Below are positions 8,367-55,642 of a DNA stretch of 64,000 nucleotides, piece by piece; the stretch's first letter is position 1; every line of letters begins with the position of its first letter. The stretch is from contig OX638332.1 in NCBI GenBank assembly GCA_951812735.1, positions 938,732 through 1,002,731 of the forward strand, in the 5' to 3' direction. The notes below the pieces were generated by a model that was not told where the DNA came from, ran no database searches, and worked only from the letters and a program-made list of their open reading frames with translations. The stretch comes from Candidatus Dadabacteria bacterium (lineage in GTDB: Bacteria; Desulfobacterota_D; UBA1144; Nemesobacterales; Nemesobacteraceae). The position numbers and the translations under genes were made by a program.

Positions 8367-8392
8367 CAGATTCGGGCACTGAAACTGTTTTC

Positions 8393-9519: not shown

Positions 9520-9525
9520 TATAAT
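9520..9525 (+). promoter_or_regulatory. Putative -10 box of the HAD/GH65/phosphatase operon
   Basis: A perfect TATAAT about 50 bases before the HAD gene. TTGGTT at 9495-9500 is a possible -35 box, but the 19-base spacer is longer than ideal. Confidence 0.4.
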
Positions 9526-9576
9526 TAACCCGCGGCGAAAACGGTCTTATCAGAATTTCCGAGCAGGAAAACTAAT

Positions 9577-10362: not shown

Positions 10363-10380
10363 CGAACCAAGGAAACCGGG

Positions 10381-12774: not shown

Positions 12775-12816
12775 GAAACCGCCGAAGCTTTGTTCTAAGC
12801 GCGGGATCTGATACAA

Positions 12817-13812: not shown

Positions 13813-13923
13813 CAGATCAAATTTCTTGCGAGTGGGAAACCGGCATTTCCCGAATCCAGTCTAATCAAAGACTTCTAAAAAGTTACTCCCCACTTCACTG
13901 GACCCCATAGAGCACAACTATTC

Positions 13924-14727: not shown

Positions 14728-14730
14728 TCT

Positions 14731-39482: not shown

Positions 39483-40868
39483 CTACATGCATCTTTTGAG
39501 AAACCTTCTGGCGCTTGCTATCTGTTTTCTGACGTTTGCAGTTGAGGTGCCGCCGAGTGAATTCCTGCTCTCAACGGAACCCGAAAACGTTATCACTTGG
39601 AAAATATCCTCGTCAATCTCCTTAGAGAACCTGCGGAATTCGGAGAGCTTGAGATCGGAAAGCTCCTTTTCTCCCCGCTCCGCGTAAGAAACTATTTTCC
39701 CCACAATTTCATGGGCTGAACGGAACGGGATACCTTTGCGGGCCAAGTAGTCCGCCACATCGGTTGCGGTTACAAAGCCTCTCTCAAGCGCTTTTTTCAT
39801 GTTCTCTTCCTTAAATTGCAAGGTCTTGAGCATTTCGATATTAACCCGCAGGCAAAGCTTCACCGTATCAACGGTATCGAAAAGAGGCTCCTTGTCTTCC
39901 TGCATGTCTCTATTGTAGGAAAGCGGAAGTCCTTTCATCAGGGTTAGCAGTGCGCTCAGATTCCCGTAGACCCTAGCGGTTTTTCCCCGGGTGAGTTCAG
40001 ACATGTCAGGATTTTTTTTCTGGGGCATTATGCTTGAACCCGTTGTGAACCCGTCCCCGAGATCAACGAAATCAAACTCCTTCGCACTCCACAGAACAAA
40101 CTCCTCGGAGAGCCTGCTGAGGTGCATCATCAAAACCGAGCAGCAGAAGACAAATTCCGCACAGAAATCACGATCGCTTACTGCGTCTATGCTGTTTTTA
40201 GAAAATGTCTTGAAACCCAGATCTTCGGCAGTCATCTCCCTGTCTATCGGAAACGAGGTTCCCGCCCCGGCACAGCTTCCAAGCGGGCTCACATCCACCC
40301 TTGCAAGACAGTCAACAAACCTCTCACGGTCTCGCTTCAGCATCTCGTAGTAGGCCAGAAGGTGGTGTGAGAGAAGCACCGGCTGGGCACTCTGCATGTG
40401 AGTATAAAGGGGAAGAATCACCCCGAGGTTCTTTGCGGAAAGCTCAACGAACTGCTCTGCCAACGCACACACAAGCGAAATTATCTCCTCTGTTTCCCCC
40501 CTGAGGTAAAGCCTAGTGTCGGTCAGAACCTGGTCGTTTCTGCTCCTGGCCGTGTGTACCATGGCGCCCGAAGAGCCCGTTTTCTCGATAAGTCTCTTTT
40601 CTATATTGAGATGGATATCCTCGTAGCTCTCGCTGAAAGCAAATTCCCCGCGGTCTATTTCTTTTTCGATTTCCCTAAGGCCTTTGGTTATCCGAGAGGC
40701 GTCCTTGCGGGAAATAATTCCGGTTTTGCGAAGCATCTTCACATGGGCGATACTGCCCCGCACGTCTTCTTTGTAAAGGCGCTTGTCAAAACTTACCGAT
40801 TCCGAGAACTTTTCGGCAATGCTGTGTGTCTGGGAAGCGAAGCGGCCTCCCCACGCTTTTTTGGCCAA
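39483..40868 (-). CDS. argH: Argininosuccinate lyase
   Basis: 461 residues. It makes arginine and fumarate in the last step of arginine synthesis. The fumarase-superfamily signature GSSIMPQKKNPDMSEL is near residue 277. TARSRNDQVLTD and HMQSAQPVLLSHHLLAYYEM are other ASL hallmarks, and the catalytic Ser loop lies within the signature. It starts one base after the stop of the mscS-type gene and is part of that transcript. argG is not in this window. Confidence 0.95.
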   Translation of the reverse strand: MAKKAWGGRFASQTHSIAEKFSESVSFDKRLYKEDVRGSIAHVKMLRKTGIISRKDASRITKGLREIEKEIDRGEFAFSESYEDIHLNIEKRLIEKTGSSGAMVHTARSRNDQVLTDTRLYLRGETEEIISLVCALAEQFVELSAKNLGVILPLYTHMQSAQPVLLSHHLLAYYEMLKRDRERFVDCLARVDVSPLGSCAGAGTSFPIDREMTAEDLGFKTFSKNSIDAVSDRDFCAEFVFCCSVLMMHLSRLSEEFVLWSAKEFDFVDLGDGFTTGSSIMPQKKNPDMSELTRGKTARVYGNLSALLTLMKGLPLSYNRDMQEDKEPLFDTVDTVKLCLRVNIEMLKTLQFKEENMKKALERGFVTATDVADYLARKGIPFRSAHEIVGKIVSYAERGEKELSDLKLSEFRRFSKEIDEDIFQVITFSGSVESRNSLGGTSTANVRKQIASARRFLKRCM

Positions 40869-40869
40869 C

Positions 40870-41961
40870 TCAGCCTCCAGTTCCCGCGCCGGTCGACGCG
40901 GTATTTATTGAATCAAGAAAAATCTTCCGGGTGGGATAAGCGAACTCTATTCCCTCCTCGGAGAACCTTTTGAATATCTTGAGGTTAACGTTCTGCTGTG
41001 TATCCATGTAATCATCAAACGAAGGCGTAAGAACAAAGTAAACTATATCGTAGTTAAGGGCAAAATCACCGTAGCTGCTGAAATGCGCCCTGCCGAACTT
41101 CGCCTTAGGTTCTGCGTCTATTATCCCCCTTATCAACCCGGGTATTTTCACAAGATTGTCGTAGGATGTCTCGTAAACGACGCCGAGGGAAAAAAGGATT
41201 CTGCGGGTATCCATCCTCTTGTAGTTTTTTACGCGGCTTTGCAGCAGGTCGTTATTCGACAAAACAAGCTGCTCGCCCGAGAGGCTCCTTAGGCGAGTGG
41301 TCTTAAGCCCTATGTGTTCCACGTCTCCGCTCATACTGTCTATGACTATGAAATCCCCCACTTCAAAAGGCTTGTCGAAAATGATGGAAAGCGAGGCTAT
41401 GAGGTCGCCCAGAACGTTCTGAAGCGCAAGTGCCACAGCTATGCCCCCGACGCCGAGTCCCGCAATTATAGTGGTCGGGTCAAAACCAAGGTTGTCGATC
41501 GTTAGAATTACGAGGATTACCCAGAGAACCGATTTCGCGAAAAAACCGAGGGTCTTTATGTGCGTTATGGAAGCGCCGGCACCGGCACCAATACCCGCAA
41601 GCTTCTTGGTTACGTAGTAGTCGATGAAACCGCCTCCCCAGAAACCAACCTGGACGAGAAGGCAGATAACTATCACGCTTTTTCGGAATTCCTTCAGCTG
41701 CCCGGTCAGGTCAAGGAAGAAAGTCGCCACGTAGACTGAAAAGATTATTATCAGCACTATGCTGGTTTTCTCTACGAGCGCCGAAACCAGATCGTCAAAA
41801 TCGGTTTCGGTCTTCTCGGCAAAGCCGGCAAATGACCTTACAAACCTTTTGAGAATGAAGTTAAAGACAAAAGCTAAAATAATCGCCGCTCCGAGCGCCC
41901 AGAGCCACGACTCAACAGAATTGCCAAGATAAGTACGGCTGATTATTTCCTCAATGTTCAA
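40870..41961 (-). CDS. Small-conductance mechanosensitive channel, MscS family
   Basis: 363 residues. Membrane segments lie at about 15-40, 65-90, 95-115 and 140-165. The pore-lining helix GLGVGGIAVALALQNVLGDLIASL is followed by the beta domain (FDKPFEVGDFIVIDSMSGDVEHIG, then TRLRSLSGEQLVLSNNDLL), typical of MscS. Such channels open on membrane tension during osmotic downshift. Its end is adjacent to argH with a single base between. Confidence 0.88.
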   Translation of the reverse strand: MNIEEIISRTYLGNSVESWLWALGAAIILAFVFNFILKRFVRSFAGFAEKTETDFDDLVSALVEKTSIVLIIIFSVYVATFFLDLTGQLKEFRKSVIVICLLVQVGFWGGGFIDYYVTKKLAGIGAGAGASITHIKTLGFFAKSVLWVILVILTIDNLGFDPTTIIAGLGVGGIAVALALQNVLGDLIASLSIIFDKPFEVGDFIVIDSMSGDVEHIGLKTTRLRSLSGEQLVLSNNDLLQSRVKNYKRMDTRRILFSLGVVYETSYDNLVKIPGLIRGIIDAEPKAKFGRAHFSSYGDFALNYDIVYFVLTPSFDDYMDTQQNVNLKIFKRFSEEGIEFAYPTRKIFLDSINTASTGAGTGG

Positions 41962-42066
41962 TCAAATATTCTCCCTAATTCAAAAATATGCCCGTCCCCG
42001 TGTACGGCCATCATATAGATACCCGCTTGACTAGCCTTAAACAACAAAGAAGGGCGGGGAAAAAGA

Positions 42067-42702
42067 TCAGAAGGAACTTCCGGGTTCTTTTAGAAACTCG
42101 GTTTCTTCCGGGGTGGATTCTCTTCCCAAAGCCGCGTTTCTGTGGGGATACCTTCCGAATTTTTTTATTATGTCGAAGTGTCGTCCCGCAAAATCCGTAG
42201 AACAGGCAAGAGTTTCTCTGATTTGCGGCTGCGTGGTGTACTCTTTTTCAAGAGCGGAGTACTTCTCAACACTCAGGTTCTGGATCTCGAGATCCTCCGA
42301 GTGCATAAGCGGTAGATAGAAAAATGCCCTGTGCATCGGGTGAAGATCTTTATCAAATCCCTTCTCAATACCCTCAAGGCATACACGAAGTGCCAATGAG
42401 TCCCTTGAGAAGGCTCCTGGGGTATCGCGGTAGATGTTCCTTGGAAACTGATCGACAACCACTATAAACGCCACGGTGCCCAAGGGTGTTTCAAGCCAAT
42501 TGGAAAGCTCCCCTTCTTCAGCGAAAAGAACATATTTCTCAAATCTCTGCTTTATAAGATCGTCGAACTCCTCTGACTTCATCCACCATGTCATCTGCTT
42601 CTCTTTATCCGGCAGTTCACCCTCGCGCAGGTCGCCGAACCAGAAACGCAACACATCGGAGATTTCTTCAAGTCCGTCTGCTGTCGAGACTTCCTTCTTC
42701 AT
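42067..42702 (-). CDS. DUF924 family protein
   Basis: 211 residues from ATG 42702; a start six codons earlier is less usual for the family. It carries the DUF924 features: VLRFWFGDL near the start, MTWWMKSEEFDDLI, FIVVVDQFPRNIYRDTPGAFSRD and MHRAFFYLPLMHSEDL. The all-alpha family has no agreed biochemical role. The last 80 or so bases have a rough duplicate at 42818-42879. It lies 105 bp upstream of the mscS-type gene in the same direction. Confidence 0.85.
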   Translation of the reverse strand: MKKEVSTADGLEEISDVLRFWFGDLREGELPDKEKQMTWWMKSEEFDDLIKQRFEKYVLFAEEGELSNWLETPLGTVAFIVVVDQFPRNIYRDTPGAFSRDSLALRVCLEGIEKGFDKDLHPMHRAFFYLPLMHSEDLEIQNLSVEKYSALEKEYTTQPQIRETLACSTDFAGRHFDIIKKFGRYPHRNAALGRESTPEETEFLKEPGSSF

Positions 42703-43159
42703 GCTTCGAGAGTATAACACAGGAGAAGCGGTATTCCGCAGAAACCATTTCTCGCTTCAAAGCAAACTCAATATGAAGTCACCCCTTGAAACCACGAACA
42801 AAAAAACGACGAAAAAATCAGAAGCAACTACCGGGGTGATTTCTCTTTCCAAAGCTGCGTTTCTAGGGGGGGGGCCTTACGGATTTTACTATTTGTATAT
42901 TGTAACGGAAGACATGAAATTGCCAAACGGAAGACATCAAGTTGCCACAAAATTCGCAGAAATGGGCATATTATGTTAACTAAAAAAGCCGATAATTTAA
43001 GTAATACTCTTAAGTTTTAATGGGTATCGAATGGCTGTTTAAGGTTCTTTCATGGGGGTTCAAACGGGCTTTAAATCAGGTTTAAAACTCCTTTTAGTCT
43101 CCTTCTAATACATGCGTTTCAGTTAAGCCTGCATCAAAGCGGGGGTGGCGGATAACCGG
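42703..43159. other. Intergenic patchwork: gene-end duplicate and IS-end-like repeats
   Basis: 457 bp with no gene. 42818-42879 resembles the 3' end of the DUF924 gene (ATCAGAAG, CTCTT, CCAAAGC and GCGTTTCT blocks) with a deletion. 42898-42930 and the following tandem copy of GGAAGACAT-SAA-RTTGCCA look like transposon-end sequence and recur near 46863. The rest up to 43159 is AT-rich without a visible function. Confidence 0.5.
42898..42947. repeat. IS-end-like repeat, copy A (tandem motif)
   Basis: The motif AACGGAAGACATGAAATTGCC, shortened here to its core GGAAGACATGAAATTGCC, is followed directly by GGAAGACATCAAGTTGCCA. The first 33 bases (42898-42930) match 46863-46895 with about six changes. 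The tandem arrangement suggests transposase-binding sites of a lost element. Confidence 0.5.
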
Positions 43160-43780
43160 TCAGTTCTTAGTGGCAGAATCATTTCTTCCGTTACCCAAAG
43201 TCTCCGGTCCATTCGTGATTTCCTTACACTTCCCTTCTCCTATCTCCCAGCATTGACGAAACCTTTCTGAATGCTCCGAGCTGAAGTGAGCCTCATAGCG
43301 GTGATTAGGGCCTTTAACCGTAAATCGGAAGGATTCACCGCGTGCCAAGGAATTCCTTTCGTCGACCGGTTGTTCTTCATTGAGATTCAGCAGTTTTATA
43401 TCTTTCGCGTCGCCCCCTTTGTTTTCGACTATCCAGTCCCACCAATTTCCGGGTGAAGCGATTCTAAGAGTAAGACGGGGTATGGCATTCCGTAAGTCTT
43501 CTGTTACTTGCTCCTGTAACAATTCAGTCTGTTTACCGAGCTGGTCTCGTGTAAGCGCTAGTTCCTCGCGCTGAAGGCGGAGCTCTTTGGACTGTAGGAG
43601 ATACCCGTATACCAACCAACCGAAAGCCAGGGGTGTGAAGAAGCCTGCGAGAAAGTCTCCCAACTCGTTGAGGTTGCCTGCCCTTAAGAGCTCACATGCA
43701 TCGTTACCACGCAAAAAAAGAATGACGGCGATGTAGACAATGCTTAAGCCACCTATCACTAAGATGTTAGGATACTTCAT
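43160..43780 (-). CDS. Membrane protein with cytoplasmic coiled coil, unknown function
   Basis: 206 residues. Two membrane segments (about 5-23 and 43-62) enclose a short loop. A coiled coil follows (about 65-95, QSKELRLQREELALTRDQL). The C-terminal domain of about 100 residues is beta-rich (RLTLRIASPG) with no known motif. Two-segment membrane proteins with the DFLAGFFTPLAFGWLVYGY-like stretch and coiled coil occur often in accessory islands. AAGGGAAAG lies before the ATG. It is divergent from the SRAP gene. Confidence 0.6.
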   Translation of the reverse strand: MKYPNILVIGGLSIVYIAVILFLRGNDACELLRAGNLNELGDFLAGFFTPLAFGWLVYGYLLQSKELRLQREELALTRDQLGKQTELLQEQVTEDLRNAIPRLTLRIASPGNWWDWIVENKGGDAKDIKLLNLNEEQPVDERNSLARGESFRFTVKGPNHRYEAHFSSEHSERFRQCWEIGEGKCKEITNGPETLGNGRNDSATKN

Positions 43781-43926
43781 TCACTTTCCCTTACTCTTCT
43801 CGACCCATTTGCGCGCCTTCCCCGAATTTATCTCTTGCCAAACGTCAAAAATCTAATATCTTCCTCTTACTTTTTCAATGACATTTTCGAAAAATCGCTA
43901 GGCGAGAGCGAGAGAGGTGTACAACG

Positions 43927-44607
43927 ATGTGCGGCCGTTTCACTCAGCAGTTGACTTGGCATCAGATTCACCAGCTGTACAGTCTGAGGGGACCGGAGTT
44001 GCCGCTGAATCTGCAGCCGCGCTATAACGGTGCACCATCTCAGGACTTTGCGGCGTGCCGGCTCGATGAAGATGGGAACCGCGCCATTGCTCAGCTACGC
44101 TGGGGGCTGGTGCCGTCCTGGGCACGAAACGTCAGGATGGGAACGCGTCTCATCAACGCCCGGGCAGAGACCGTTCACGACAAGCCGTCATACGGTGCCG
44201 CCTTTCGCTCACGTCGATGCCTGGTGCCGGCCAACGGCTGGTTCGAGTGGAAAAGGACCGGGCACGGCAAGCAGCCATACTTTCTGGCACTTGCCGACGG
44301 ATCGCCTTTATCGTTCGCCGCTTTGTGGGAACATTGGGAAAAGCGCGGAGAACCCCTCGAGTCTTTCACCATTATTACAACTGTGGCCTCTTCGGGGCTC
44401 GCTGACATTCACCACCGACAGCCGGCTATTGTCGATCCTGACCATTTTTACGATTGGCTCGATCCGGAATCACCGGTGTCGCTACTGCTTGATCTGGTGC
44501 GTAAGCCCTATTGTGGGCCTTACGAAAAACGCGCCGTCAGTACCAGGGTGAACAGCGTGAGTAACGACGATCCAGATGTTCTACTCCCCTTATCGGAGAA
44601 ACTCTGA
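43927..44607 (+). CDS. SOS response-associated peptidase (SRAP / YedK / HMCES family)
   Basis: 226 residues. Cys2 after the start Met is the nucleophile that crosslinks to abasic sites in single-stranded DNA. MCGRFTQQ at the start, INARAET near residue 78 (Asn and Glu of the site) and the His in IHHRQPAIV near 160 are the hallmark residues. Such proteins protect replication forks from abasic lesions. It has an intact length. No LexA-like site was recognised upstream. It lies alone in the accessory region, divergent from a membrane protein. Confidence 0.92.
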   Translation: MCGRFTQQLTWHQIHQLYSLRGPELPLNLQPRYNGAPSQDFAACRLDEDGNRAIAQLRWGLVPSWARNVRMGTRLINARAETVHDKPSYGAAFRSRRCLVPANGWFEWKRTGHGKQPYFLALADGSPLSFAALWEHWEKRGEPLESFTIITTVASSGLADIHHRQPAIVDPDHFYDWLDPESPVSLLLDLVRKPYCGPYEKRAVSTRVNSVSNDDPDVLLPLSEKL

Positions 44608-44674
44608 AAACGCCCTTTAAGAACAGCAAAACCATTTTTAAAATTTGGCAAAAATATCTTTCAAACCATAATGG

Positions 44675-45337
44675 TCATGTTTTCTCATCGAGAATTTGGG
44701 CGCAGTTGAGGGGACCACCTAAATCGAAATAATAGTGGTCGCAAAATATACGTTTCCCCTCTTTGTTTTTCTCGAATTTGTGCAGAGCGGTAGGAACGAT
44801 CAGCCTAAATTCGTACTCCTCCGAAAATTTGCTAGGTTTTTGGCGGGTAGACAACTCGTATATTTCACTGAGGGTCGGTTCTGTATCCCGGCGTTGGTTC
44901 TCGTCATACCTGACTTTGCAACATTCAACTACCATGTCGGCAAACGGGTGTGTAGGATCTAGCTTGCAAAATGTATCAGTCAGTTTTTGGCCTAACTCGA
45001 TGGGATTGGTAATTCGAACAACGTGCTGCTTCCCGAACTTCTCTTTTAGTTTAGCAATGTTGGCCCTCCGCGGATCTGTAAAACTAAGGATATACATTGG
45101 ACTGGCATAGGTTGCGATGTTGTAGATGTAACCTAGACCCTCACTTGGAGCGATGAATAAACCCGTGCCCTCACTTGGATCATTTATTGTTTGGTCCTCA
45201 ACACCTTTGTAGTAGTCCAGTGATCCAATCCGGATGTTCCCAGAAATAAATTCCTCCGCATGCTCTCTCTCTTCGAAGAACCGGAGCAACTCCGGAGGAT
45301 AATCGCCAAACGTCAATTTATCTTTTCCATCATTCAT
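44675..45337 (-). CDS. DUF2971-like protein
   Basis: 220 residues. The pattern of an early INDPSEG and a later EEYEFRLIV resembles DUF2971 proteins, which are found in phage-defence and other accessory islands with no proven activity. The match is not strong. A clear AAGGAGGTAGT site precedes the ATG. The 5' leader is duplicated (45341-45499) and contains two palindromes, which suggests tight regulation. It lies next to an IS3 remnant. Confidence 0.5.
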   Translation of the reverse strand: MNDGKDKLTFGDYPPELLRFFEEREHAEEFISGNIRIGSLDYYKGVEDQTINDPSEGTGLFIAPSEGLGYIYNIATYASPMYILSFTDPRRANIAKLKEKFGKQHVVRITNPIELGQKLTDTFCKLDPTHPFADMVVECCKVRYDENQRRDTEPTLSEIYELSTRQKPSKFSEEYEFRLIVPTALHKFEKNKEGKRIFCDHYYFDLGGPLNCAQILDEKT

Positions 45338-45340
45338 TTG

Positions 45341-45499
45341 TACTACCTCCTTAAAACTCGTTAGTATCTATTGATACTGTCCACCTTAAGGTGTTCCCGA
45401 CGCTCAGAAAATCCCGCCTATCGATCTTACTACCTCCTTAAAACTCGTTAGTATCTACTAATACTATCCACCTTAAGGTGTTCCCGACGCTCAGAAAAT
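45341..45499. repeat. Two direct 72-bp repeats in the leader of the DUF2971-like gene
   Basis: Copies at 45341-45412 and 45428-45499 differ at three positions only. Each contains, on the minus strand, a ribosome-binding site, a 12-bp palindrome CACCTTAAGGTG (45382-45393; 45469-45480) and an AGTATC/GATACT inverted repeat (imperfect in the second copy). The second copy's ribosome-binding site has no start codon after it. Confidence 0.85.
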
Positions 45500-45504
45500 A
45501 GAAG

Positions 45505-45862
45505 TGGACCCCAATGTTAGGACAGTTTTTTCGTTTTCTTAAGTGTATTCCAACCATTTTCAAGCCACTTTTGGTAATCCACGAGGCAGACCATAGTAAA
45601 CCTGATCTGGCGTAGATCTATCAAGACCCTGATGTCGCCGACGAGTATTGTAAAAATCTATCCATTCCCCAATCCCTTCCTTCGCCGAGCGAACCGAATC
45701 ATAGGCCTTAAGATACACTTCCTCGTATTTTAAACTCCTCCATAATCTCTCAATAAACACATTGTCCATCCAGCTTCTCTTCCCGTCCATACTGATCCTT
45801 ATGCCGTTTCTCTTCAATACCCCCGTAAACCCCCGGTATAACGAGAAAAATAGTTTTGCCAT
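45505..45862 (-). pseudogene. IS3-family transposase C-terminal remnant
   Basis: Minus-strand reading gives about 90 residues of the integrase end: GIRISMDGKRSWMDNVFIE, then LWRSLKYEEVYLKAYDS and FYNTRRRHQGLDRSTP, typical of IS3-family OrfB. The N-terminal two thirds are missing. The other end of the fragment has GTGGACCCCAATGTTAGGACA (its core CCCCAATGTTAGGACA), which resembles an IS3-family terminus at about 45505. The first ten residues of the open frame come from unrelated sequence. Confidence 0.75.
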
Positions 45863-45895
45863 TTTGGAAAGATAATTTTGCCACGAAATCTATAA
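45861..45895. repeat. IS-end-like repeat, related sequence
   Basis: On the minus strand it reads GTGGCAAAATTATCTTTCC, a loose match to the GGAAGACAT-AA-TTGCCAC motif of copies at 42898 and 46863. It adjoins the IS3 remnant. Confidence 0.3.
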
Positions 45896-46008
45896 GACAA
45901 CAGTATGATATTGGCAGAGATCACGAATAAATTAAATAGTTCGCTTAAGTTTAAAGGTGCGTCAACCGGCCTTTAAACGGGTTTGAAAGGATGGTTTATG
46001 GTGTGTTC

Positions 46009-46269
46009 TTACGTGGCCACGGTTCTTTCAATAGACGTGGTTCCCGACGGTATGGCGCGGGCCTCAATCGTGACGACTGCCCGTAGCGAGAGCTGGAGCC
46101 AGTTGCTCGGAGCCCCATTAGGTACCAGCTTGACGCCGATTACTCTAAGCCTGTTCCCCAGCGCCCTTATTGGGCGGTTGAGGGTATATAAACAGACTTT
46201 AACTAGGTTGTAACCAGTCGGCGACATTAGATAAGAAATCGAAAAAACTTTGCTGACATTGGGCTTCAC
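46009..46269 (-). pseudogene. Duplicated 3' fragment of the phage end-protein gene
   Basis: The last 54 residues (from IRALGN on) match the end of the protein coded at 46913-47500, including the identical SIERTVAT ending. The matching DNA is 45998-46172 against 46902-47076, exactly 904 bases apart. The N-terminal residues of the open frame come from elsewhere. It has no start of its own and is probably not a functional gene. Confidence 0.8.
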
Positions 46270-46861
46270 TTCTTTCTTCTCTTTTTCCTATCTGTTCTAG
46301 TAGTCTTTTACGTAGTATTTTAATCTTGCTGTGCTCTCTTCGCATCAGCGGTGCGAGGGCTACAAGTTTTTTGTGGAGTTCATGTGATAAGGAGTTGTCC
46401 TTTTCCACTTTTTCATATCGAACTAAGAGCTCGCTGTTAGTTTTGTAAGAATCTAAGAGTGCCTTTGACAGCGTGTATGCCTTCACAATATCCCTACGCA
46501 AATCTTCGTCCTCGATCTGCCCAATAACATGTGCATTTGAGTTATAGATGGTGAAATAATCTCGAGAGGGATCCCATTTGTAAGGAAAGTAGGATCCCTT
46601 TTCTAATTTCTCCATCCTATTTCCCATAGCCTCCATATAGCGTTCCCAGAGCACTGTAATCTCAACGTGAATTGCTTGAAGGACACCTTCAACTTCCTCA
46701 CATCGACGGATCTCATCACGCTTGATCTGGTTATGATAAGCGAACCATGCACCCGTGAGGACAAGAATAACAGGCATCATTGATTTTGCAACGACACGCA
46801 GAGTGTTGAGTGAGAGAAATTTTGTGTTCATGGCATTATCTTTTTTCCTAATCATTTTCAT
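46199..46861 (-). CDS. Membrane-anchored helical protein inserted between phage fragments
   Basis: 220 residues. A start ten codons later is also possible. One membrane segment lies near residues 28-46 (MMPVILVLTGAWFAYH), then a long helical part with acidic and basic heptads (about 50-210) and a Lys/Arg-rich end. I see no known domain. It lies between two copies of a phage-gene end, which marks it as a later insertion, and a TATAAT sits just before its start within IS-end-like sequence. It may be a phage 'moron' or defence-type gene; this is not shown by sequence. Confidence 0.55.
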   Translation of the reverse strand: MKMIRKKDNAMNTKFLSLNTLRVVAKSMMPVILVLTGAWFAYHNQIKRDEIRRCEEVEGVLQAIHVEITVLWERYMEAMGNRMEKLEKGSYFPYKWDPSRDYFTIYNSNAHVIGQIEDEDLRRDIVKAYTLSKALLDSYKTNSELLVRYEKVEKDNSLSHELHKKLVALAPLMRREHSKIKILRKRLLEQIGKREERSEAQCQQSFFDFLSNVADWLQPS

Positions 46862-46862
46862 C

Positions 46863-46895
46863 TATTATAACGGGAAAAATCAAATTGCCGAACGG
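46863..46895. repeat. IS-end-like repeat, copy B
   Basis: 33 bases matching 42898-42930 with about six changes. Both contain TAACGG, an A-rich centre, AAATTGCC and AACGG. It lies directly upstream of the inserted membrane gene and supplies its TATAAT. Confidence 0.5.
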
Positions 46896-46912
46896 CCCTT
46901 GAATGGTGTGTA

Positions 46913-47500
46913 TTAAGTGGCCACGGTTCTTTCAATAGACGCGGTTCCCGACGGTACGGCGCGTACCTCAATCGTGACGACTGCCTGCATCGAGAGCTGG
47001 AGCCGGTTGCCCGGAGCACCACCAGGTCTCAGCCTGACGCTGGTTGTTTTAAGCCCGTTCCCCAGCGCCCTTATTGTGTATGACGTGCTCGTGTAAGTCA
47101 CCCACGCACTCTGCCCCATATACTGGAAATCCACATCTATTCGCAGCCAGCCGAAGTTCGTCGGCGGGTTATAAGAGGAGGGGAACGATACGTTCACGTA
47201 CGGCCAGTCGTCCACTAGGGCTAGATCCTCCTTGCCCCCTACTACGGTGGTGGTCGGCACCTGAATGGGGGTCTGGGCTGGGCTGCCCTCCGTCGCTTCA
47301 ATTACAATGCTCGGAATATACGAGTCGTTGTCGCTTGTAATCTGCCAAGTCTCCCGCGAGGTAATGCTTCCGGACACAGTGAATGTTTTTTGCGTTTCTC
47401 CTGGGGAGAAGTAATGCGCGCCGCCGTAGCCAAACCATGTTGGGCTCGGCCTCTCAATAGCAAAATCCACCCGTCGCGACTGTGTCGGGAACCGGAACAT
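46913..47500 (-). CDS. Phage tail-module protein, 5' end truncated
   Basis: 195 residues as an open frame. The first 17 or so come from the IS1182 remnant read in another frame, so the true gene has lost its 5' end. The remainder is beta-rich with Ser, Thr and Tyr (GYGGAHYFSPGETQKTFTVSG, shortened to its core GYGGAHYFSPG), as in phage tail-tip and receptor-binding proteins. The end matches the duplicated fragment at 46009. Expression is doubtful. Confidence 0.55.
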   Translation of the reverse strand: MFRFPTQSRRVDFAIERPSPTWFGYGGAHYFSPGETQKTFTVSGSITSRETWQITSDNDSYIPSIVIEATEGSPAQTPIQVPTTTVVGGKEDLALVDDWPYVNVSFPSSYNPPTNFGWLRIDVDFQYMGQSAWVTYTSTSYTIRALGNGLKTTSVRLRPGGAPGNRLQLSMQAVVTIEVRAVPSGTASIERTVAT

Positions 47501-47578
47501 AAACCGTTATATCCTCATCCTCGCACCGCTTAAGTTGCGTGCTCTCGTAATAACCCCCCAACAGCGCTTTTTCTACGT
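47452..47578 (-). pseudogene. IS1182-family transposase fragment
   Basis: Between the two phage genes a minus-strand frame reads about 40 residues: EKALLGGYYESTQLKRCEDE, then DITVYVPVPDTVAT. The GYYES..LKxCEDxxITVYVP pattern is typical of IS1182-family transposases just before their C-terminal part. It is closed by stops on both sides and is far below full length. Confidence 0.65.
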
Positions 47579-47585
47579 CTTATTC

Positions 47586-50500
47586 TCACAAATAAGTCCA
47601 CTCGGAATTAAGATATGGAATGGTTCCTAGCAGCCAGGAAGCGTTCGCGAGAGCCTGGATTCTCACTCCTGTGAATGGTACAGATTGAAGAAAGGAGGCA
47701 GGCGGTTCTCCCACGTCGCTCTGTCGTCGGCTTCCTTCGTGCACGAAGCTAATTCTGTAAGCTCTAGCATTAGGAACAAGATTCCAGGTGTATCTCTGAG
47801 ATTGATTCAGACTCCCTTCAAAATAACGCTGAAACCCAGTGGGGGCCCCAAGTCGTTCCCACTGTTCTTGGGGCGGAAGCGGCGGAACATATCTCCCGAC
47901 ATTGATCACAACGGAATCAGTCGCACTTGTCGTCCCATCACTCACCGTCAGCTGAAATTCCAAGATGTGGCTGGAGCTCGTCGAAGGAGCCGTAAAACTG
48001 GCCCGCTCCGAGGTCGGGTTTGAAATCGATACGGGCGCTCCCGACAGCTGTTCCCAGAAATAGGTGAGATTGTCACCATCCGGATCGTGAGAGTATGAAC
48101 CATTGAGCGTTACGGATGCTCCAGCTCCTACGCTCCTGTCAATGCCGGCACTTGCAACCGGAGCAGTGTTTACCAGAAAGGAAACAGGGAACCCGAGCAA
48201 TTCCTTATTCTCTGATACCGAGTATACGACCACCGTATAGGAAGCGATCTCCAAAGGAAGGTTGAACCGGGCTTTTCGTGACGTTGTCGAGAGCCTGTCA
48301 ACAACCAGTTCTTCGTCCGTAACTCGCTGAGGAGTTCCGGTGTTCCCCAAAACCAGCCAGACTTGAGCTCCCGAGTAGTTTTCGGGAGGGACCTCGTAGC
48401 TTAATTCGCAGACGAAGACGCTTTCATCTCCCGACCCGACGCTCCTGGTTTGCGCAAACAGGTTTCGTATTGGTTCCGGATGTGTCTGAGAGAAGTCAGT
48501 AGGAGGCTTAAAGGAACTCTCGTTTAAGTGGAAATCTCTTTCCCCATACGGATATTTGAGGACTCCGCTCAGGCGGTCAAGATCGCTGGGGTCCGATAGA
48601 TAAATGTCGGGCAAGGGAACGAGCTCAAGTTGGATAAATGCGTCGCAAGTTTCTTCCTTCCTCGCGACTTCCCAATCGGTTTCACTGTCGAGAATGTTAT
48701 TGGAAACTTTTATCCTCTCGCCGACTTTTATGCTATCCCTCGAGAGTATGATAGCGGCGGCATCCACAGAGACTCGGAGCCTCCTGTTGTGTGCCAGGCG
48801 CGTCTGCTTCTCTCGCCACAGGACAATATCTGCGGTCAGCTGATCGTAAACAAACGGAAGGTCGACAGCAGCTCTTCTTCCCATCTTTCTTACAGATTCC
48901 GCTGCTTGCTCCTCAGCGTCTGCATCTGTAGGTGGCAGAGACAGATCGAATTTCCCGTCACCGTCCGGACGGAAATTGACGACGAGTTCCTTGGTGAGCT
49001 CCGAGAGAGGATCCATTACAACCTCGGGCAACTCCAGCTGTTGAGTCAGATCTTCGGGCAGGACTTTCGCAATGTAGTCTCCGGAGCCTGGCGTCGGCTC
49101 CGGTTCGCGAAAGTGTAAAGATATTCCTTTTGGATCGCGAGCGAGTTTGAACGGCCGGATCTTCGCGGCTTCCTCGACGAGCGCAGCCACGGTCGTTTCC
49201 CTGGTTATAGCTCCTTCCATTTTCAGGTCCAGCATTGAGGACTCGGCTGCCGTAAAGGACTCGACATCTATCTCGTCATTCTTGATCCCAAGGCCCCATG
49301 TGTTGTCCTGGAGCAGACAGCGGATAAACTGTGCCGGGCTTGAGGAGAGAGTGGGATCTTGGCTTTGGAAACCTTCCACGTCTGCGGTGATTTCTCCAGT
49401 ATATTTCACAGCAAAGCGCATAAAGGCATACCCGGGCCACGGGTAGTCCTGGGATCCGTCGAAGAATCGGAACCCTCGGAGCCGGTAATTGTTATAGTCG
49501 AGAGCATTGACGGCGGAGAGGGTTACAGAGTTCATTTCGCTGTCGTAGCTCTCTATCGGGATCGCACCCTCTAGCACGTCGCCATTATAAAACTCGATGA
49601 CGAAGTTCGCGTACCAGTCATCCAGCGGCCGGGCAAGGTGATCTTCTAAAGTGAGAGTGTGCTCGCCGTCTGGCAGATTCGTATCGTTCGTGAGATCTCC
49701 GGAGACAAGCTCGGGCAATGCACGACCGTCGTGGTAAACTCTGAACACCTGTTTGAACCGCCTGCCCTGGATGGTCGAGCACGTACCCTCGCCCAGCAGA
49801 TAGTCATAGACGTTAGAGTGATTCACTACTACCTCATCAATGGCGTGTGCGTTCTCGAGGCTTTCTGTGAGCGTGACAGTGTCTGAGCTCAGATTTACAG
49901 CTGAGATCTTCGCGGTCTCAAGGTTGTCGGTGCCGAGCCCTATGGAAATCACGTCTCCCTTCCCCATGCCAGCGGCCGAATTGACTGTGATCTGCGTCGC
50001 TTCCGCGCTTGAGGCCGCTGCAAGGGCGGTCTCGTACCCAACCGCGAGATTCGGGCACTTATGCCGTATCGCTCGGCCGAAGACTATGGGGATCGGCGTA
50101 TTCTGCGCCAGGGAGGTCGGGAACGTCTCTTGAGTAATCTTGCGCCTGGGGAGTGTCTGTTCGAGCTCCTGTATTACCAGGTCGGACATGGAGAGACGAA
50201 CCTCGGTAAGGTTCGTCGTCTGTTCGGAGATCTGCCCGTTGAAGATGAGCCTGGTCGTCTCGGCGAGCGACTGTCCCCAGATCTGAACGTACCACCCTAT
50301 ATAGTTTCGTTGGGAGAGAGCATCGTCCGCGTTGTCGAGTCTGATATTTACGGTTGAGGAGTCCTGGATAAAAAAGTCATAGGAGGAAACCACCGGAATC
50401 TCAAGCAGTCGAGGCGTTGCAAAAAGGCCGCGAGGAAGCTCCGGCCGCAAAGTGTTTGGGACCTTCAGCCTGCCCTGCCGAGTTACAATGCTGGCGTTAG

Positions 50501-50891
50501 GGTCTATCAGCTCTACAAATATCTTCTCTGCCTTAGAGTTTCTCTCGGCTGGACGTGAGGTGTCTGCAAAGTCGATGTCTAGGCAGAAAAGATCCGGAGG
50601 CACTACCCTGGGAGTTGCCTGCGTAAAATGCGTCAGGACGCCGTCCGACTCTGTCGCGGGGAAATCATCGGTCACCCGTAAAGGCCTTGCAAGGTGCGTC
50701 AGGACACCGTCCGACTCTGTCGCGGGGAAGTCATCGGTCACCCGCAAAGGCCTTGCAAGGTGCGTCAGGACACCGTCCGACTCTGTCGCGGGGAAGTCAT
50801 CGGTCACCCGCAAAGGCCTTGCAAGGTGCGTCAGGACACCGCCCGACTCTGTCGCGGGAAAGTCGTCGATCGCCGAAAGACTTATTGCCAC
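47586..50891 (-). CDS. Large phage tail/fibre-like protein with N-terminal repeats and a PKD-like domain
   Basis: 1101 residues; GTG start, 9 bases after the previous gene. Residues 9-88 are four near-identical 22-residue repeats (DDFPATESDGVLTHLARPLR, then VT). Residues 95-800 resemble phage tail-associated proteins, with strand-rich sequence and YIGWYVQIWGQSLAETTRL. At about 915-1000 a PKD/REJ-like domain has ASAGIDRSVGAGASVTLNGS and a DPDGDNLTYFW motif. The last 100 residues are beta-rich. No enzyme motif is visible. Probably a tail-tip or fibre protein. Confidence 0.65.
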   Translation of the reverse strand: MAISLSAIDDFPATESGGVLTHLARPLRVTDDFPATESDGVLTHLARPLRVTDDFPATESDGVLTHLARPLRVTDDFPATESDGVLTHFTQATPRVVPPDLFCLDIDFADTSRPAERNSKAEKIFVELIDPNASIVTRQGRLKVPNTLRPELPRGLFATPRLLEIPVVSSYDFFIQDSSTVNIRLDNADDALSQRNYIGWYVQIWGQSLAETTRLIFNGQISEQTTNLTEVRLSMSDLVIQELEQTLPRRKITQETFPTSLAQNTPIPIVFGRAIRHKCPNLAVGYETALAAASSAEATQITVNSAAGMGKGDVISIGLGTDNLETAKISAVNLSSDTVTLTESLENAHAIDEVVVNHSNVYDYLLGEGTCSTIQGRRFKQVFRVYHDGRALPELVSGDLTNDTNLPDGEHTLTLEDHLARPLDDWYANFVIEFYNGDVLEGAIPIESYDSEMNSVTLSAVNALDYNNYRLRGFRFFDGSQDYPWPGYAFMRFAVKYTGEITADVEGFQSQDPTLSSSPAQFIRCLLQDNTWGLGIKNDEIDVESFTAAESSMLDLKMEGAITRETTVAALVEEAAKIRPFKLARDPKGISLHFREPEPTPGSGDYIAKVLPEDLTQQLELPEVVMDPLSELTKELVVNFRPDGDGKFDLSLPPTDADAEEQAAESVRKMGRRAAVDLPFVYDQLTADIVLWREKQTRLAHNRRLRVSVDAAAIILSRDSIKVGERIKVSNNILDSETDWEVARKEETCDAFIQLELVPLPDIYLSDPSDLDRLSGVLKYPYGERDFHLNESSFKPPTDFSQTHPEPIRNLFAQTRSVGSGDESVFVCELSYEVPPENYSGAQVWLVLGNTGTPQRVTDEELVVDRLSTTSRKARFNLPLEIASYTVVVYSVSENKELLGFPVSFLVNTAPVASAGIDRSVGAGASVTLNGSYSHDPDGDNLTYFWEQLSGAPVSISNPTSERASFTAPSTSSSHILEFQLTVSDGTTSATDSVVINVGRYVPPLPPQEQWERLGAPTGFQRYFEGSLNQSQRYTWNLVPNARAYRISFVHEGSRRQSDVGEPPASFLQSVPFTGVRIQALANASWLLGTIPYLNSEWTYL
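50628..50867 (-). repeat. 66-bp tandem repeat in the large tail-protein gene
   Basis: Three and a half copies of a 66-base unit, nearly identical at DNA level (AAGGCCTTGCAAGGTGCGTC recurs in each), in frame and coding 22 residues each. The first copy and the last differ slightly. High identity suggests recent expansion. Confidence 0.9.
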
Positions 50892-50900
50892 TCAAAGCTC

Positions 50901-51473
50901 CTAAAGAACCGATATAATCGCCAGTTCGCCTGCGGGAATATATACATCGTTTCCGCTGAAAACAGCTTCGGGATCGTTCGTGAGGTCAATCTCATAAAGT
51001 TTGTCGCCCCCGGTAGAAGCCGTGTGAATCGTGATCTCGGTGATATCGCCCCATGATCCGGTCGGAGTGGCGAAATCCAGCTGGCTCGTGTTCCGCAGTT
51101 GCGGGTAGCGAACCACCTCCGCGCCATTTGCGTGATCGTTTACCAAACCGGTTTCGAGAGTTAGGGTGGATTCGCTTATCGCTGTGATTTTCACGCGCTC
51201 TCTGCTTGTGCCCGTGCCGATATGGATTCTATCGTTTACAGACAGGCCGGTTACGCTTGTGAGGGTAACCGTTGTGTCTCCACTCGCCGAATCCGCGCTA
51301 AGCGTCGTCTCAAACTCATCGCTCTCAAAAGTTACTCCGGACGACGAGAGCGATTTTCTCGCGTACGCGTTTCCGCTTACTTCCGTCCCACTGACCCCTA
51401 GACCTATATATCTTGTGGAGCTGAAAAGACCTTTCAGCATCGCTTCAGCACCCTTGTTAGTTGCACCTGGCAT
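50901..51473 (-). CDS. Phage structural protein
   Basis: 190 residues. MPGATNKGAEAML followed by IGLGVSGTEVSGNAYARKS is the common start of a small phage structural family found beside tail genes. The rest is beta-rich with alternating polar residues. A strong AAAGGAGGTAATT site lies before the ATG. It lies 9 bases before the large tail protein and 75 bases after the previous gene. There is no signal peptide. Confidence 0.65.
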   Translation of the reverse strand: MPGATNKGAEAMLKGLFSSTRYIGLGVSGTEVSGNAYARKSLSSSGVTFESDEFETTLSADSASGDTTVTLTSVTGLSVNDRIHIGTGTSRERVKITAISESTLTLETGLVNDHANGAEVVRYPQLRNTSQLDFATPTGSWGDITEITIHTASTGGDKLYEIDLTNDPEAVFSGNDVYIPAGELAIISVL

Positions 51474-51548
51474 CTTAATTACCTCCTTTGTTATTTCACT
51501 TCCAGCGTAAGCGCTGGTGTTGTTTGCCTGTTAAAATCCCCTTACAAG

Positions 51549-52253
51549 TTACAAGACCTCCATCACTACGGGTTGGACCCGCTCGCGCCCGTATTCTGCC
51601 AAAACATGCTTCGCTGTTCGCTGAGAGGATTTTCCAATGATCCACGCCTCGGAGAGATTGCGGCCGAAAAAGAAGAAGTCTCTCTGGGGCGAGAGTGTGC
51701 GGAGTATCTTGTAGATCTTGGAATCGGGGTCCGGCTCCTCTTCGTCTTCGGCTCGAAGATTGATCGTAATATCAAGCATCGGCTCCCGGCCGACGACGCG
51801 TACAAGATCATTGCCGCCTTCCCTCCGTTCGGAACTCACCCTGGGAGACAGGTTACGAGCAAAAGGATAGGTAATGATAACCTCGTCTGTGATCTCGATT
51901 TCATCAGAGACAAGTCAGGCGAGTATCGTTCCCGCGCGCCGATCTCCCACCAGATTCAGGTTCACGTCAATATTAATTGAGGCAGGAGTAAAGGTTCTGA
52001 TCGCGCGGGAGCGGTCGAGATACAGATCCTTTACCGTATCGACACCTGTACCGGCTATGTCCACGGCCGTCGAATCCTGCAGGCGTTCGCAGAAGAGACG
52101 AATTTCATTGCCACCTGCCGCTGCGGGAAGCGTGATATCAAGCGCCGCGTTGATTCCCGCCCCAGGATTCCGTGGGTCGGAATCTTCAATTCGAAAGAGA
52201 CGATCCCCTGAAAGTTCGACCTGAATATCCAGAAATTTCGACACTATGTACAT
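51549..52253 (-). pseudogene. Phage tail protein with an in-frame TGA stop
   Basis: Two open frames in the same phase (52253-51915 and 51839-51549) are joined by coding-like sequence. After GTILA the TGA at 51915-51917 is followed by LVSDEIEITDEVIITYPFAR and the protein goes on without another stop to 51549. Reading through gives 234 residues. Both halves have the beta-rich look of the neighbours. Either the gene is broken by a point change or it uses stop readthrough. The only in-frame start in the second half is a GTG at 51839. The first half overlaps the coiled-coil gene by one base. Confidence 0.7.
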
Positions 52254-52588
52254 CAGGGCCTCCCCGATAAAGCCTGTAACGGTTGCCGCAGACTGCGCTC
52301 AAGCGATGACTCAATCCTGCGCAGAGATCCGCTTATCCTCTCGAGCTCAGAGACCATCCGCGAATGTTGGTTGTGCTGCTCCTCGAGGAGAGACACCTGG
52401 TTGCTCAGGTGGGCGTCGATAATCCTTTTGGTCTCAAGCGATACGGTAAACTGGCGATTATTCACCGCCTCGATGCGCGCCGCGATTTCATTCTGCCTCG
52501 CCACAAGGCCCTGTTGAGTTATGATTTCCTGGCGGGTCTGGTCCTGCACAAGCTTAAGTCCTTCCTCGGCCGCGGCGAACTTTTCCAC
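52253..52588 (-). CDS. Coiled-coil phage-module protein, 5' end truncated
   Basis: 111 residues, GTG start, almost wholly alpha-helical. Coiled coil heptads run through about 20-105 (ARQNEIAARIEAVNNRQ, then HSRMVSELERISGSLRRIES). The frame stays open upstream of the GTG into unrelated peroxidase sequence, so the true start has probably been lost. It overlaps the next gene by one base. It could be a tail chaperone or a tail-fibre assembly protein. Confidence 0.5.
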   Translation of the reverse strand: MEKFAAAEEGLKLVQDQTRQEIITQQGLVARQNEIAARIEAVNNRQFTVSLETKRIIDAHLSNQVSLLEEQHNQHSRMVSELERISGSLRRIESSLERSLRQPLQALSGRP

Positions 52589-52762
52589 ACAATCGTTGCC
52601 CGTCAGTTCAGGGTGTTGCGCGACGGCGATCGTTTCTGGTACCAGCGTAGCCTATCGCAAGATGAACTTAGAGAAATAGAAGAAACAAGTCTCGCCGATA
52701 TTATCCGCAGAAACACAGATGTTGGAAGTGAAATCAGCGTCAACGCATTTATCATTGAGTAG
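52583..52762 (+). pseudogene. C-terminal remnant of an animal-type heme peroxidase
   Basis: About 60 residues in plus frame: FHTIVARQFRVLRDGDRFWY, then LSQDELREIEETSLADII, then RRNTDVGSEISVNAF. This is the distinctive end of animal-type heme peroxidases found in bacteria, with a RLRDGDRFWY core and the Asn of IRRNT. The catalytic His and heme pocket are missing. The region upstream in this frame is antisense to a phage gene, so the peroxidase was cut by the phage insertion or a rearrangement. Confidence 0.75.
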
Positions 52763-53020
52763 CTGAATTGAAAAGGAAGTACTATTAAGAATCGGGCGTT
52801 TTTGAGACCAGATCTCAAAAAATTGCTGTTACTTTTCCCAAGAAACTCAATTCATGTGAGATGATTGCTTGCTACAAAGGAAATTTTAACAGTCCATGAG
52901 TTACCGAGAAACTTTTATGATTCGTGGCTAATCATCTGATCTCATTGAAATTTCAGGACCCGATAGTTCTTCTTTACGGGAAGCTCTTTAACCTTATCTT
53001 AACAAAAACAAAATAGTTTC
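52763..53020. other. AT-rich spacer between the peroxidase remnant and nrdJ
   Basis: 258 bp with no gene, RNA or repeat that I can support. The nrdJ control region starts at 53021. Confidence 0.4.
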
Positions 53021-53050
53021 TTGACAAGACCCAATATATTGTGTTTAAAT
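53021..53050 (+). promoter_or_regulatory. nrdJ promoter overlapping an NrdR-type box
   Basis: TTGACA (53021-53026), an 18-base spacer and TTAAAT (53045-53050). The spacer holds CAATATATTG in the palindrome ACCCAATATATTGTGT (53029-53044), close to the NrdR box consensus. A second weaker box, GCAACATATCTTGTGC (53071-53086), lies 42 bases downstream, four helical turns. Binding there would block transcription when nucleotide pools are high. Confidence 0.6.
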
Positions 53051-53061
53051 AGACTTCACGT

Positions 53062-53084
53062 ACAAGATAAGCAACATATCTTGT
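53062..53084 (+). promoter_or_regulatory. Hairpin in the nrdJ leader
   Basis: ACAAGATA and TATCTTGT (8 bp) pair around a 7-base loop. It overlaps the second putative NrdR box and may be an operator or an mRNA structure. No cobalamin riboswitch sequence was recognised. Confidence 0.45.
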
Positions 53085-53132
53085 GCGCGGCCCGGAAGGC
53101 AATGTTTATAAGGAACAAAAAAGGAGGAGAAT

Positions 53133-55610
53133 GTGCCTGGAGATAAGACCCCCCCCGAAATCGTTGCTAATGGAACATCCGATCATAAAACTACAACAGT
53201 TGATGAGCAAAAAGCCCAGGCTCAAGAACCTTCTCCAGAACACGTAAAAGCTCCAAGCGACACCATAGATATCCCTGCAGAAACGATTGACGCCTTCGGC
53301 GGGGACAAGCTCAGGGCTCGGGTTTTTTACGAAAAATACGCTCTTCGCGACATAAAGGGAGAAATAATAGAAAAAACTCCAGAGCAAATGTGGCGAAGGG
53401 TGGCCAAGGAAATAGCCTCACCCGAAGAAAAAAAAGAACTGAGGAAACAGTGGGAGGAGAATTTCTACTGGCTCCTTTCCGATTTCAAATTCATACCTGG
53501 TGGAAGAATCCTCTTCGGAGCCGGTCAGAAGAGAAGAGCCACGCTCCTTAACTGCTACTACATGCCCATAAAGGAAGATTCCATAGAAGGAATATTCGAG
53601 TGGTGCAAGGAGGCCGCCAGGACCTATTCTTTCGGCGGAGGAGTCGGAACCGACATATCGATCCTGAGGCCGAAAGGCTCCCCGGTGAACAATTCAGCCA
53701 TATACTCGACGGGAGCAGTCTCTTTCATGGATCTTCTCTCCACAACGACCGGAACCATAGGACAGGCGGGAAGAAGAGGGGCTCTGATGATAACCATCAA
53801 AGTCGATCATCCAGACATAATGGAGTTTCTCGACATAAAAAACGATGAGGCGAGATCAAAGGTCCAGTTCGCCAACATCTCGGTTAAGGTGGATGACAAG
53901 TTCATGGAGGCTGTGGAAAAAGACACAGATTACGAACTCACCTTCTCAAACGAGAAAACCGAAATAAAAAGAACCGTGCGGGCCCGCCAAATATGGGAAA
54001 AACTGGTCAAATCAGCATGGTCCTCGGCCGAGCCCGGACTTATTTTCTGGGACACGGTTAAGAGGTACTCGCCTACCGAATACGCCAACATGGAAGTAAA
54101 CGGAGTGAACCCATGCAGCGAGCAGGCACTTGAGGATTACGGAAACTGCTGTCTTGGAAACGTAAATCTCTCTATGTTTGTCAAAAATGCCTTTGAGAAA
54201 GATGCAGCGATAGAGTGGGAGGATCTCGAGAAGGCTTTTCACTACAGCGTCAGATTCCTTGATGACATCTTGGACTACAACATCGAAAAACATCCTCTAA
54301 GTTTCCAGACAAAAGCATCTATGAGATCAAGGAGAATAGGAGTCGGATTCACCGGCCTAGGGGACATGCTTGCGAAGCTCAACATAAAATACGATACGCA
54401 CGAAGGTATAAAGTTCACCGACGAGCTTTTCGAGCACGTAAAGAATATCGTTTACGAAGCCAGTTCCGATCTTGCCAAGGAGAAGGGGACTTTCCCTGTG
54501 TTTGACCTCAAAACCCATATCGCAAATCCGTTCGTAAAAAGCATGCGTGATAATGTGATGAGCAAGATAAAGAAGCAGGGTCTTAGAAACGCGTGCATAC
54601 TCACGGTCCCTCCTGTAGGAAGCGGTTCTGTTCTCGCGGGGACCACAAGCGGAGTCGAGCCCATGTTCGCCCTGTCTTATCTCCGACGCTCGGAATCCCT
54701 GTCGGAAGGAGAATTCAAGGTTTATCATCCGCTGGTATCGGAGTACATGGAGAAATCTGGACTGGATAACGAGGCGGATCTTCCAGACACGTTCGTCACC
54801 TCCCACGAGATAGAACCGGAGATGCGGGTACGCATGCAAGCCGCAATCCAGAAGCACATAGATTCATGCATATCAAGTACCGTGAATCTTCCCAAAGACA
54901 TAAGCCTTGAGGAAGTTGAGAAGATATATTTTCTTTCTTGGAAGCTTGGCTGTAAGGGAGTAACCGTCTACAGAGAAGGTTCCAGGGAAGGGATACTGAT
55001 AACAGAAGAACAAGCAAAAGAAAAAACAAACTCTCCACCCCGGGATGAAGGGATGTCAACCACCCACTCCAACCTCACACCATCCCCTCATCCCTCTCAA
55101 AAAGAAACGGTAAAACCTGTCACAAGACCCCAAGTCTTGGAAGGGTTTACCGAGGCGATTAAAACTGGGTATGGGAATCTCTACGTGACTGTAAACAGTT
55201 ACGAAGGCAAGCCGTTTGAAGTTTTTGTCCAGATTGGGAAATCTGGATTTACTACGATGGCGGATGCCGAGGCAACTGGAAGGCTGATATCTCTGTCTCT
55301 GAGGTCTGGGGTCGATGTCAGAGATGTCGTGGAACAGCTGGAGGCCATTGGAGGTTCCTCACCAGTTTTTTCGGGGGGTAGGGTTATAATGTCCGTCCCC
55401 GACGCCATAGCTAAAGTGCTAAGAAGCCATTTCGTCACGAAGGAAAAAACCAGCGACGAAGTCGGCCCAGCCATGGAAGCAAATGGCAGCACCCAGAAGG
55501 TCTCAACGGACCTTATCCTTGAGCAATGCCCGGATTGCGGAAGCAGGGCACTTGCTTTTGAATCGGGTTGCGTTACCTGTAGGGGTTGCGGATTCTCGAA
55601 GTGCAGCTAG
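53133..55610 (+). CDS. nrdJ: Adenosylcobalamin-dependent ribonucleotide reductase (class II)
   Basis: 825 residues, GTG start with AAAGGAGGAG 5 bases before. It makes deoxyribonucleotides with a B12-generated radical. NPCSEQALEDYGNCCLGNVN holds the active-site Cys and Glu, and SRRIGVGFTGLGDMLA lies in the barrel. After about residue 620 a low-complexity linker (AKEKTNSPPRDEGMSTTHSN) leads to a TSCPD-type domain (VLEGFTEAIKTGYGNLYVTV) and a C-terminal zinc ribbon with CPDC and CRGC. The first 40 residues are an unusual Glu- and Pro-rich extension. It converges on the ATP synthase operon. Confidence 0.93.
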   Translation: MPGDKTPPEIVANGTSDHKTTTVDEQKAQAQEPSPEHVKAPSDTIDIPAETIDAFGGDKLRARVFYEKYALRDIKGEIIEKTPEQMWRRVAKEIASPEEKKELRKQWEENFYWLLSDFKFIPGGRILFGAGQKRRATLLNCYYMPIKEDSIEGIFEWCKEAARTYSFGGGVGTDISILRPKGSPVNNSAIYSTGAVSFMDLLSTTTGTIGQAGRRGALMITIKVDHPDIMEFLDIKNDEARSKVQFANISVKVDDKFMEAVEKDTDYELTFSNEKTEIKRTVRARQIWEKLVKSAWSSAEPGLIFWDTVKRYSPTEYANMEVNGVNPCSEQALEDYGNCCLGNVNLSMFVKNAFEKDAAIEWEDLEKAFHYSVRFLDDILDYNIEKHPLSFQTKASMRSRRIGVGFTGLGDMLAKLNIKYDTHEGIKFTDELFEHVKNIVYEASSDLAKEKGTFPVFDLKTHIANPFVKSMRDNVMSKIKKQGLRNACILTVPPVGSGSVLAGTTSGVEPMFALSYLRRSESLSEGEFKVYHPLVSEYMEKSGLDNEADLPDTFVTSHEIEPEMRVRMQAAIQKHIDSCISSTVNLPKDISLEEVEKIYFLSWKLGCKGVTVYREGSREGILITEEQAKEKTNSPPRDEGMSTTHSNLTPSPHPSQKETVKPVTRPQVLEGFTEAIKTGYGNLYVTVNSYEGKPFEVFVQIGKSGFTTMADAEATGRLISLSLRSGVDVRDVVEQLEAIGGSSPVFSGGRVIMSVPDAIAKVLRSHFVTKEKTSDEVGPAMEANGSTQKVSTDLILEQCPDCGSRALAFESGCVTCRGCGFSKCS

Positions 55611-55642
55611 GTCCCCCGCGGGCCAAACTTCAAAAAGGGTGA

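Follow-up and report, generated by a model that had tools for sequence, protein, structure and literature searches.

Tail-gene ends, an inserted membrane gene and their neighbours

The window analyzed here, a 64,000-nt stretch of DNA, corresponds to G000:C1:938732-1002731 in the single-contig, 1,590,246-base genome of a Candidatus Dadabacteria bacterium. It contains two direct repeats, copies 1 and 2, with an open reading frame between them (Table 1). The repeats align over 164 nt (46009-46172 and 46913-47076) at a spacing of 904 nt, with 22 mismatches (E 2.6e-53), and BLAST extended the match to 45998/46902-3, giving 175 nt. Read on the minus strand, the repeated DNA comprises the final 54 codons of a phage-tail-associated ORF and about 12 nt beyond its stop. 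A sequence-only reading of the window had reported that 45998-46172 and 46902-47076 match closely around a 220-residue membrane-anchored protein, and we confirmed both points: 22 of 164 positions differ, and the ORF at 46199-46861 is open and has a hydrophobic N-terminal segment.

Table 1. Features of the island and its repeat pair (window positions)
Feature	Position	Strand	Basis
Mosaic genomic island, 10.1 kb	42724..~52880	.	flanks joined in same-genus genomes
MITE-like element, ~295 nt, 24-nt terminal inverted repeats, 22-bp subterminal tandem repeat	42901..43195	+	repeat analysis
206-aa small membrane protein ORF, phrog_9267, function unknown	43160..43780	-	PHROG
SRAP (SOS response associated peptidase) gene	43927..44607	+	PF02586
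MITE-type end fragment, inverted relative to 45845-45883	44626..44665	-	repeat comparison
Accessory ORF, 220 aa, phrog_13198, function unknown	44675..45337	-	PHROG
87-bp tandem duplication, 1.8 copies, 95% matches	45341..45499	+	repeat search
3' fragment of IS3-family element (end of OrfB)	45495..45836	-	100% identical to full copies at 342.5 and 915.5 kb
MITE-like repeat copy, outer terminus at IS3-fragment stop	45837..45991 (right limit approximate)	+	69% over 152 nt to L011:1619-1470
Tail-ORF end, copy 1 (gene fragment)	45998..46172	-	repeat comparison, BLAST
Short match, 24/28, to repeat region L011:1495-1468; weak	46177..46204	+	sequence match
Inserted ORF, 220 aa, N-terminal membrane anchor	46199..46861	-	ORF list
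Divergent IS3-type 3' end remnant, opposite orientation to 45495-45836	46217..46275	+	inverted pair
42-nt block shared with L005:8261-8302; internally deleted MITE or shared promoter region	46863..46904	-	BLAST
Tail-ORF end, copy 2 (195-aa ORF, 46913-47500)	46902..47500	-	ORF list, BLAST
Transposase fragment between two tail ORFs, 84% to full transposase ORF in L006	47483..47558	-	sequence match
Phage tail-tip-like protein, 1101 aa, PKD domain near C-terminus	47586..50891	-	family scans
Phage fibre/structural protein	50901..51473	-	PF23140 Gp80, phrog_240
C-terminal scrap of animal-haem-peroxidase-type gene, island right edge	52570..52762 (left limit approximate)	+	PF03098 positions 450-530 of 530

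The substitutions between copies 1 and 2 comprise 17 transitions and 5 transversions; they alter the residue in 15 codons and leave it unaltered in 2, a proportion compatible with a fragment evolving under no constraint. Because these substitutions are mixed, mostly transitions, and not confined to the adenines of one copy, the copies are unlike the template/variable repeat pair of a diversity-generating retroelement, and we rejected that candidate. The ORF between them gave no reverse transcriptase match in the Pfam and PHROG family scans.

The 195-aa ORF that ends in copy 2 starts inside transposon debris, since the 76 nt at 47483-47558 match a transposase, in the same reading as in L006, whose family we take to be IS1182. 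The copy 2 "phage gene" is itself broken, with the transposase scrap in place of its upstream part. The neighbouring 1101-aa ORF is a putative tail tip protein, judged by its neighbours and architecture. Five genomes of other families contain distant relatives of its residues 355-853 (~30-37% identity); in the other 3 genomes with matches (own excluded), the match lies for the most part in the PKD region or in a short stretch. A solved-structure search returned one match for this ORF, at residues 906-988 in the PKD region, and none for the 195-aa ORF of copy 2. The 5' part of the tail-tip ORF also carries a 66-bp tandem repeat (50629-50868; 3.6 copies, 96% alike), which encodes 22-residue units that recur in the protein.

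The last ~26 residues of the inserted ORF read into the IS3-type end remnant to the right of copy 1; its homologues end before this stretch or differ there, with no clear counterpart. Three of the 12 other same-genus genomes contain relatives of the ORF, as do seven genome-contig loci, the hosts of which are two Alphaproteobacteria, a Pseudomonadota MAG, a member of the Nitrospirales, a member of the Dadabacteria and two bacteria without a named group. The relative in Candidatus Dadabacteria bacterium isolate RHO1_bin_23 is the same ORF as the one at same-genus locus L019. Searches of viral_contigs and phages found no relative. Restriction-type genes lie near two of the seven genome-contig relatives (L073 and L074) and a phage-type integrase near one (neighbours scanned at L072, L073 and L074); the relatives at L070 and L071 sit among seemingly ordinary chromosomal genes, as judged by ORF sequences only. 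At L073:5926-11926 the relative is found close upstream of type I restriction-modification genes. The inserted ORF matched nothing in PADLOC, Pfam, PHROG or NCBIfam, and a solved-structure search with its family gave a marginal match only (E 0.009). It is a member of a sporadic accessory family. We did not adopt a defence-system reading: there is no family match, and the restriction genes near 2 of 7 relatives are a lead only. That the protein acts in phage exclusion would be a guess. The core of the 42-nt block beside this ORF occurs once more in the genome, at L005, again upstream of accessory ORFs, one of which encodes a PIN-domain protein.

A third copy and two islands

A third copy of the tail-ORF end lies in the same genome, 430 kb from the window pair (G000:C1:1414359-1414755). 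The sequence-only reading was to fall if the duplicate proved absent elsewhere and the inserted gene proved part of a single old phage; with this copy, the duplicate is not confined to the window pair. Over the common 164 nt, 22 differences separate copies 1 and 2, 23 separate copies 1 and 3, and 10 separate copies 2 and 3; the private differences number 17, 4 and 5 for copies 1, 2 and 3, respectively, and one site differs in all three. The closest pair would thus be copies 2 and 3, not the adjacent copies 1 and 2, unless copy 1 has decayed faster, and the 17 private differences of copy 1 (versus 4 and 5) are as expected from decay or from an older split. On the 3' side similarity ends at about the same point past the stop in all three copies, the 5' truncation points of copies 1 and 3 differ (window 46172 and L004 12359), and the three copies have three different downstream contexts.

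The window pair lies in an island bounded on the left by a conserved gene ending at 42720, presumably of DUF924 type, and on the right by a gene at 53133 that we take, from its sequence, to encode ribonucleotide reductase. The site is empty in 8 of the 12 same-genus (Candidatus Dadabacteria) genomes, where 42669-42753 is followed by 52881-52906 within about 36-160 nt. The other four were unscored: in G001, G002 and G009 the reductase gene is preceded by different sequence or by a contig end, and G008 gave no reductase-gene match. No island DNA was present at that place in the relatives' loci examined. Because the flanks are joined in 8 of the 12 relatives, the DNA between 42724 and ~52880 counts as an insertion, and this genome is the only one in which it was seen. 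Copy 3 occupies a second island (L004 ~8269-17495) of IS and gene fragments, which is absent from the site in 11 of the 12 same-genus genomes; the G009 locus ends before the junction.

The phage genes in the window therefore stand in a block that is absent from the relatives' site, without core phage modules among the ORFs scanned, as in a degraded prophage island. The island ORFs that were scanned include neither a phage integrase nor a second phage end. A tRNA-borne integration site was ruled out, since 40000-56000 contains no tRNA, and the single Rfam match on the island fell below the gathering score and was taken as chance. The 87-bp duplication is located directly upstream of the accessory ORF at 44675-45337 and has no other copy among the genome matches.

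IS and MITE-like remnants at the junctions

Both sides of copy 1 carry transposon remnants. To its left, a 342-nt IS3 fragment stops exactly where a MITE-like repeat begins at 45837. To its right, the divergent IS3-type remnant is 86% identical to the full IS end over 46232-46273 and matches tnp codons over 46217-46230. The element at 42901-43195 is short and non-coding, has terminal inverted repeats and exists in several dispersed copies, as expected of a MITE. Its terminal inverted repeats are 83% complementary over 24 nt, and inverted repeats of this length were found in this copy only. We take its ends to resemble IS21-type ends; an IstB family search of the own genome gave 3 matches, the best at L047. 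By eye, no target-site duplication was clear at this element. A DNA search with a relative found 6 places in the own genome (query included) and none in the 12 other genomes.

A terminus of this family adjoins a truncated gene in four places, namely the IS3 element (window 45836/45837), tail copy 3 (L004 12359), an IS110 transposase (L004 16363; match to positions 1-217 of the 343 in the profile) and a gene of pentapeptide-collagen type (L011 1620). Diverged or truncated copies of pentapeptide-repeat and collagen-like fusion genes adjoin the MITE-like repeat at L004:13244-14464, L005:9950-11458 and L011:1620-2510. The family resembles MITEs and other non-autonomous IS derivatives in its length of ~295 nt, its 24-nt inverted repeats, its 22-bp tandem subterminal repeats, its dispersal and its lack of a notable ORF. 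Unlike typical MITEs, most of its copies are truncated or internally deleted, and we identified no autonomous partner.

Origin of the repeat pair

We consider it probable, at roughly three chances in four, that the pair is debris in a recently acquired 10-kb mosaic island of degraded prophage and accessory DNA, shuffled by insertion sequences and a MITE family. On this account, the island would have drawn together the tail genes of a degraded prophage with accessory genes and with 3' fragments from several unrelated genes, its pieces being shuffled by IS elements (IS3, IS1182-type) and by a MITE-like family with termini at the junctions. Copy 1 would derive from a related tail ORF, as a decayed fragment caught between remnants of MITE and IS and presumably without function; copy 2 would be the 3' part left where an IS cut a tail ORF; and the membrane gene would be a sporadic accessory gene, with IS debris now taking over at its 3' end. 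The junctions were probably made by IS/MITE recombination and not by phage recombination. The order of events behind the mosaic is something we infer and cannot read, because no intact tail-ORF ancestor is available. This account is supported by the empty site in 8 of 12 genomes and the absence of the second island in 11 of 12, by the truncated pieces (IS3 fragment, IS3-type end, transposase scrap and peroxidase C-terminus), by the four repeat termini adjoining truncated genes, by the 17 private differences of copy 1 and by the MITE copy with 24-nt inverted repeats. Against it, the common end of similarity past the stop is expected of a fixed module or phage boundary and not of random debris, the recurrence of the 42-nt block before other accessory ORFs hints at some order, and the repeat match at 46177-46204 is weak.

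The sequence-only reading had instead proposed that the membrane gene came in together with a copied phage end, as cargo exchanged by recombination at a phage tail locus. It is supported in part, by the foreign nature of the stretch (given the empty site), the phage tail genes, the sporadic accessory ORF and the three downstream contexts. A single joint arrival is not supported: copies 1 and 2 are apparently not sisters, and IS and MITE debris stands at the junctions in place of clean phage-phage joints. On this reading, a related phage would have recombined in the conserved tail-gene end, leaving a tail end, a new accessory gene and the old tail end. Such an exchange would suit tail genes next door, an inserted ORF from an accessory family and a different downstream neighbour for each copy, but copy 2 resembles the distant copy, 430 kb off, more than it does copy 1, IS/MITE remnants flank copy 1 on both sides and the ORF of copy 2 is cut by an IS. 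In addition, the 195-aa tail-end ORF had no relative in viral_contigs, genome_contigs, phages or 59 other genomes, in searches that reach fairly close relatives only. The proposed check, a search for other genomes with the same gene end beside different cargo, found no other genome at all, and no cargo hotspot can be shown because none of these searches found a relative of the tail-end ORF outside this genome. A moron hotspot should present one gene end with different cargo across several genomes and clean junctions within phage sequence; we found three copies with three neighbours within this genome, and IS3, transposase-scrap and MITE remnants at the junctions. Taken together, these results make cargo exchange unlikely.

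The shared 3' limit of the copies would suit a fixed boundary of a mobile unit, in which the tail ORF forms the extreme end of a phage that integrates or transposes, so that copies stop at the same base and their flanks differ. Copies 1, 2 and 3 do remain alike up to roughly one common base past the stop, where they begin to differ, and their 5' truncation points differ. However, there are three copies only, the scanned island ORFs supplied neither an integrase nor a second phage end, and a target duplication or shared core was not found; we regard this origin as quite improbable. A Pack-MITE-like origin, with copy 1 inside a MITE-like element (45837-45991 and, weakly, the 28-nt match at 46177-46204) of a family that captures 3' gene fragments and spreads them between islands, is rated very low because its right-hand evidence is that 28-nt match; the captured fragments may then include the tail end, the IS3 end and the pentapeptide-collagen gene. 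Slimmest of all are the prospects of a history in which the tail end was duplicated locally, in tandem, and the membrane gene inserted between the two copies afterwards. The direct orientation and short spacing fit such an event, whereas the pattern of differences, with copies 2 and 3 closest (10/164) and copy 1 the outlier (22 and 23), disfavours a simple duplication, although faster decay of copy 1 could mimic it.

The debris reading brings the locus close to degraded ("grounded") prophage remnants and IS-rich islands, which likewise combine tail genes without head, terminase or integrase genes (among the ORFs scanned), IS fragments, unrelated accessory genes and absence from sister genomes. 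Nothing essential differs from these, and here two islands share repeats and gene fragments. The small accessory ORF, with its recurrent upstream block and its place beside tail genes, also recalls phage morons; unlike morons, it has no intact phage around it, its 3' end is replaced by IS debris, and its relatives elsewhere are found with type I restriction, GmrSD/methylase or integrase genes or in apparently ordinary chromosome.

Most likely, the pair is ordinary debris of the genome rather than a special device for cargo swapping, and the main value of the analysis is this correction: the duplicate shows no cargo-swapping phage locus. The analysis also documents a small (1.59 Mb) genome of Candidatus Dadabacteria type in which phage and transposon debris forms islands, their sites being empty in relatives. 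If it is true that the MITE family carries gene fragments, these islands would offer a tractable case of fragment capture in bacteria.
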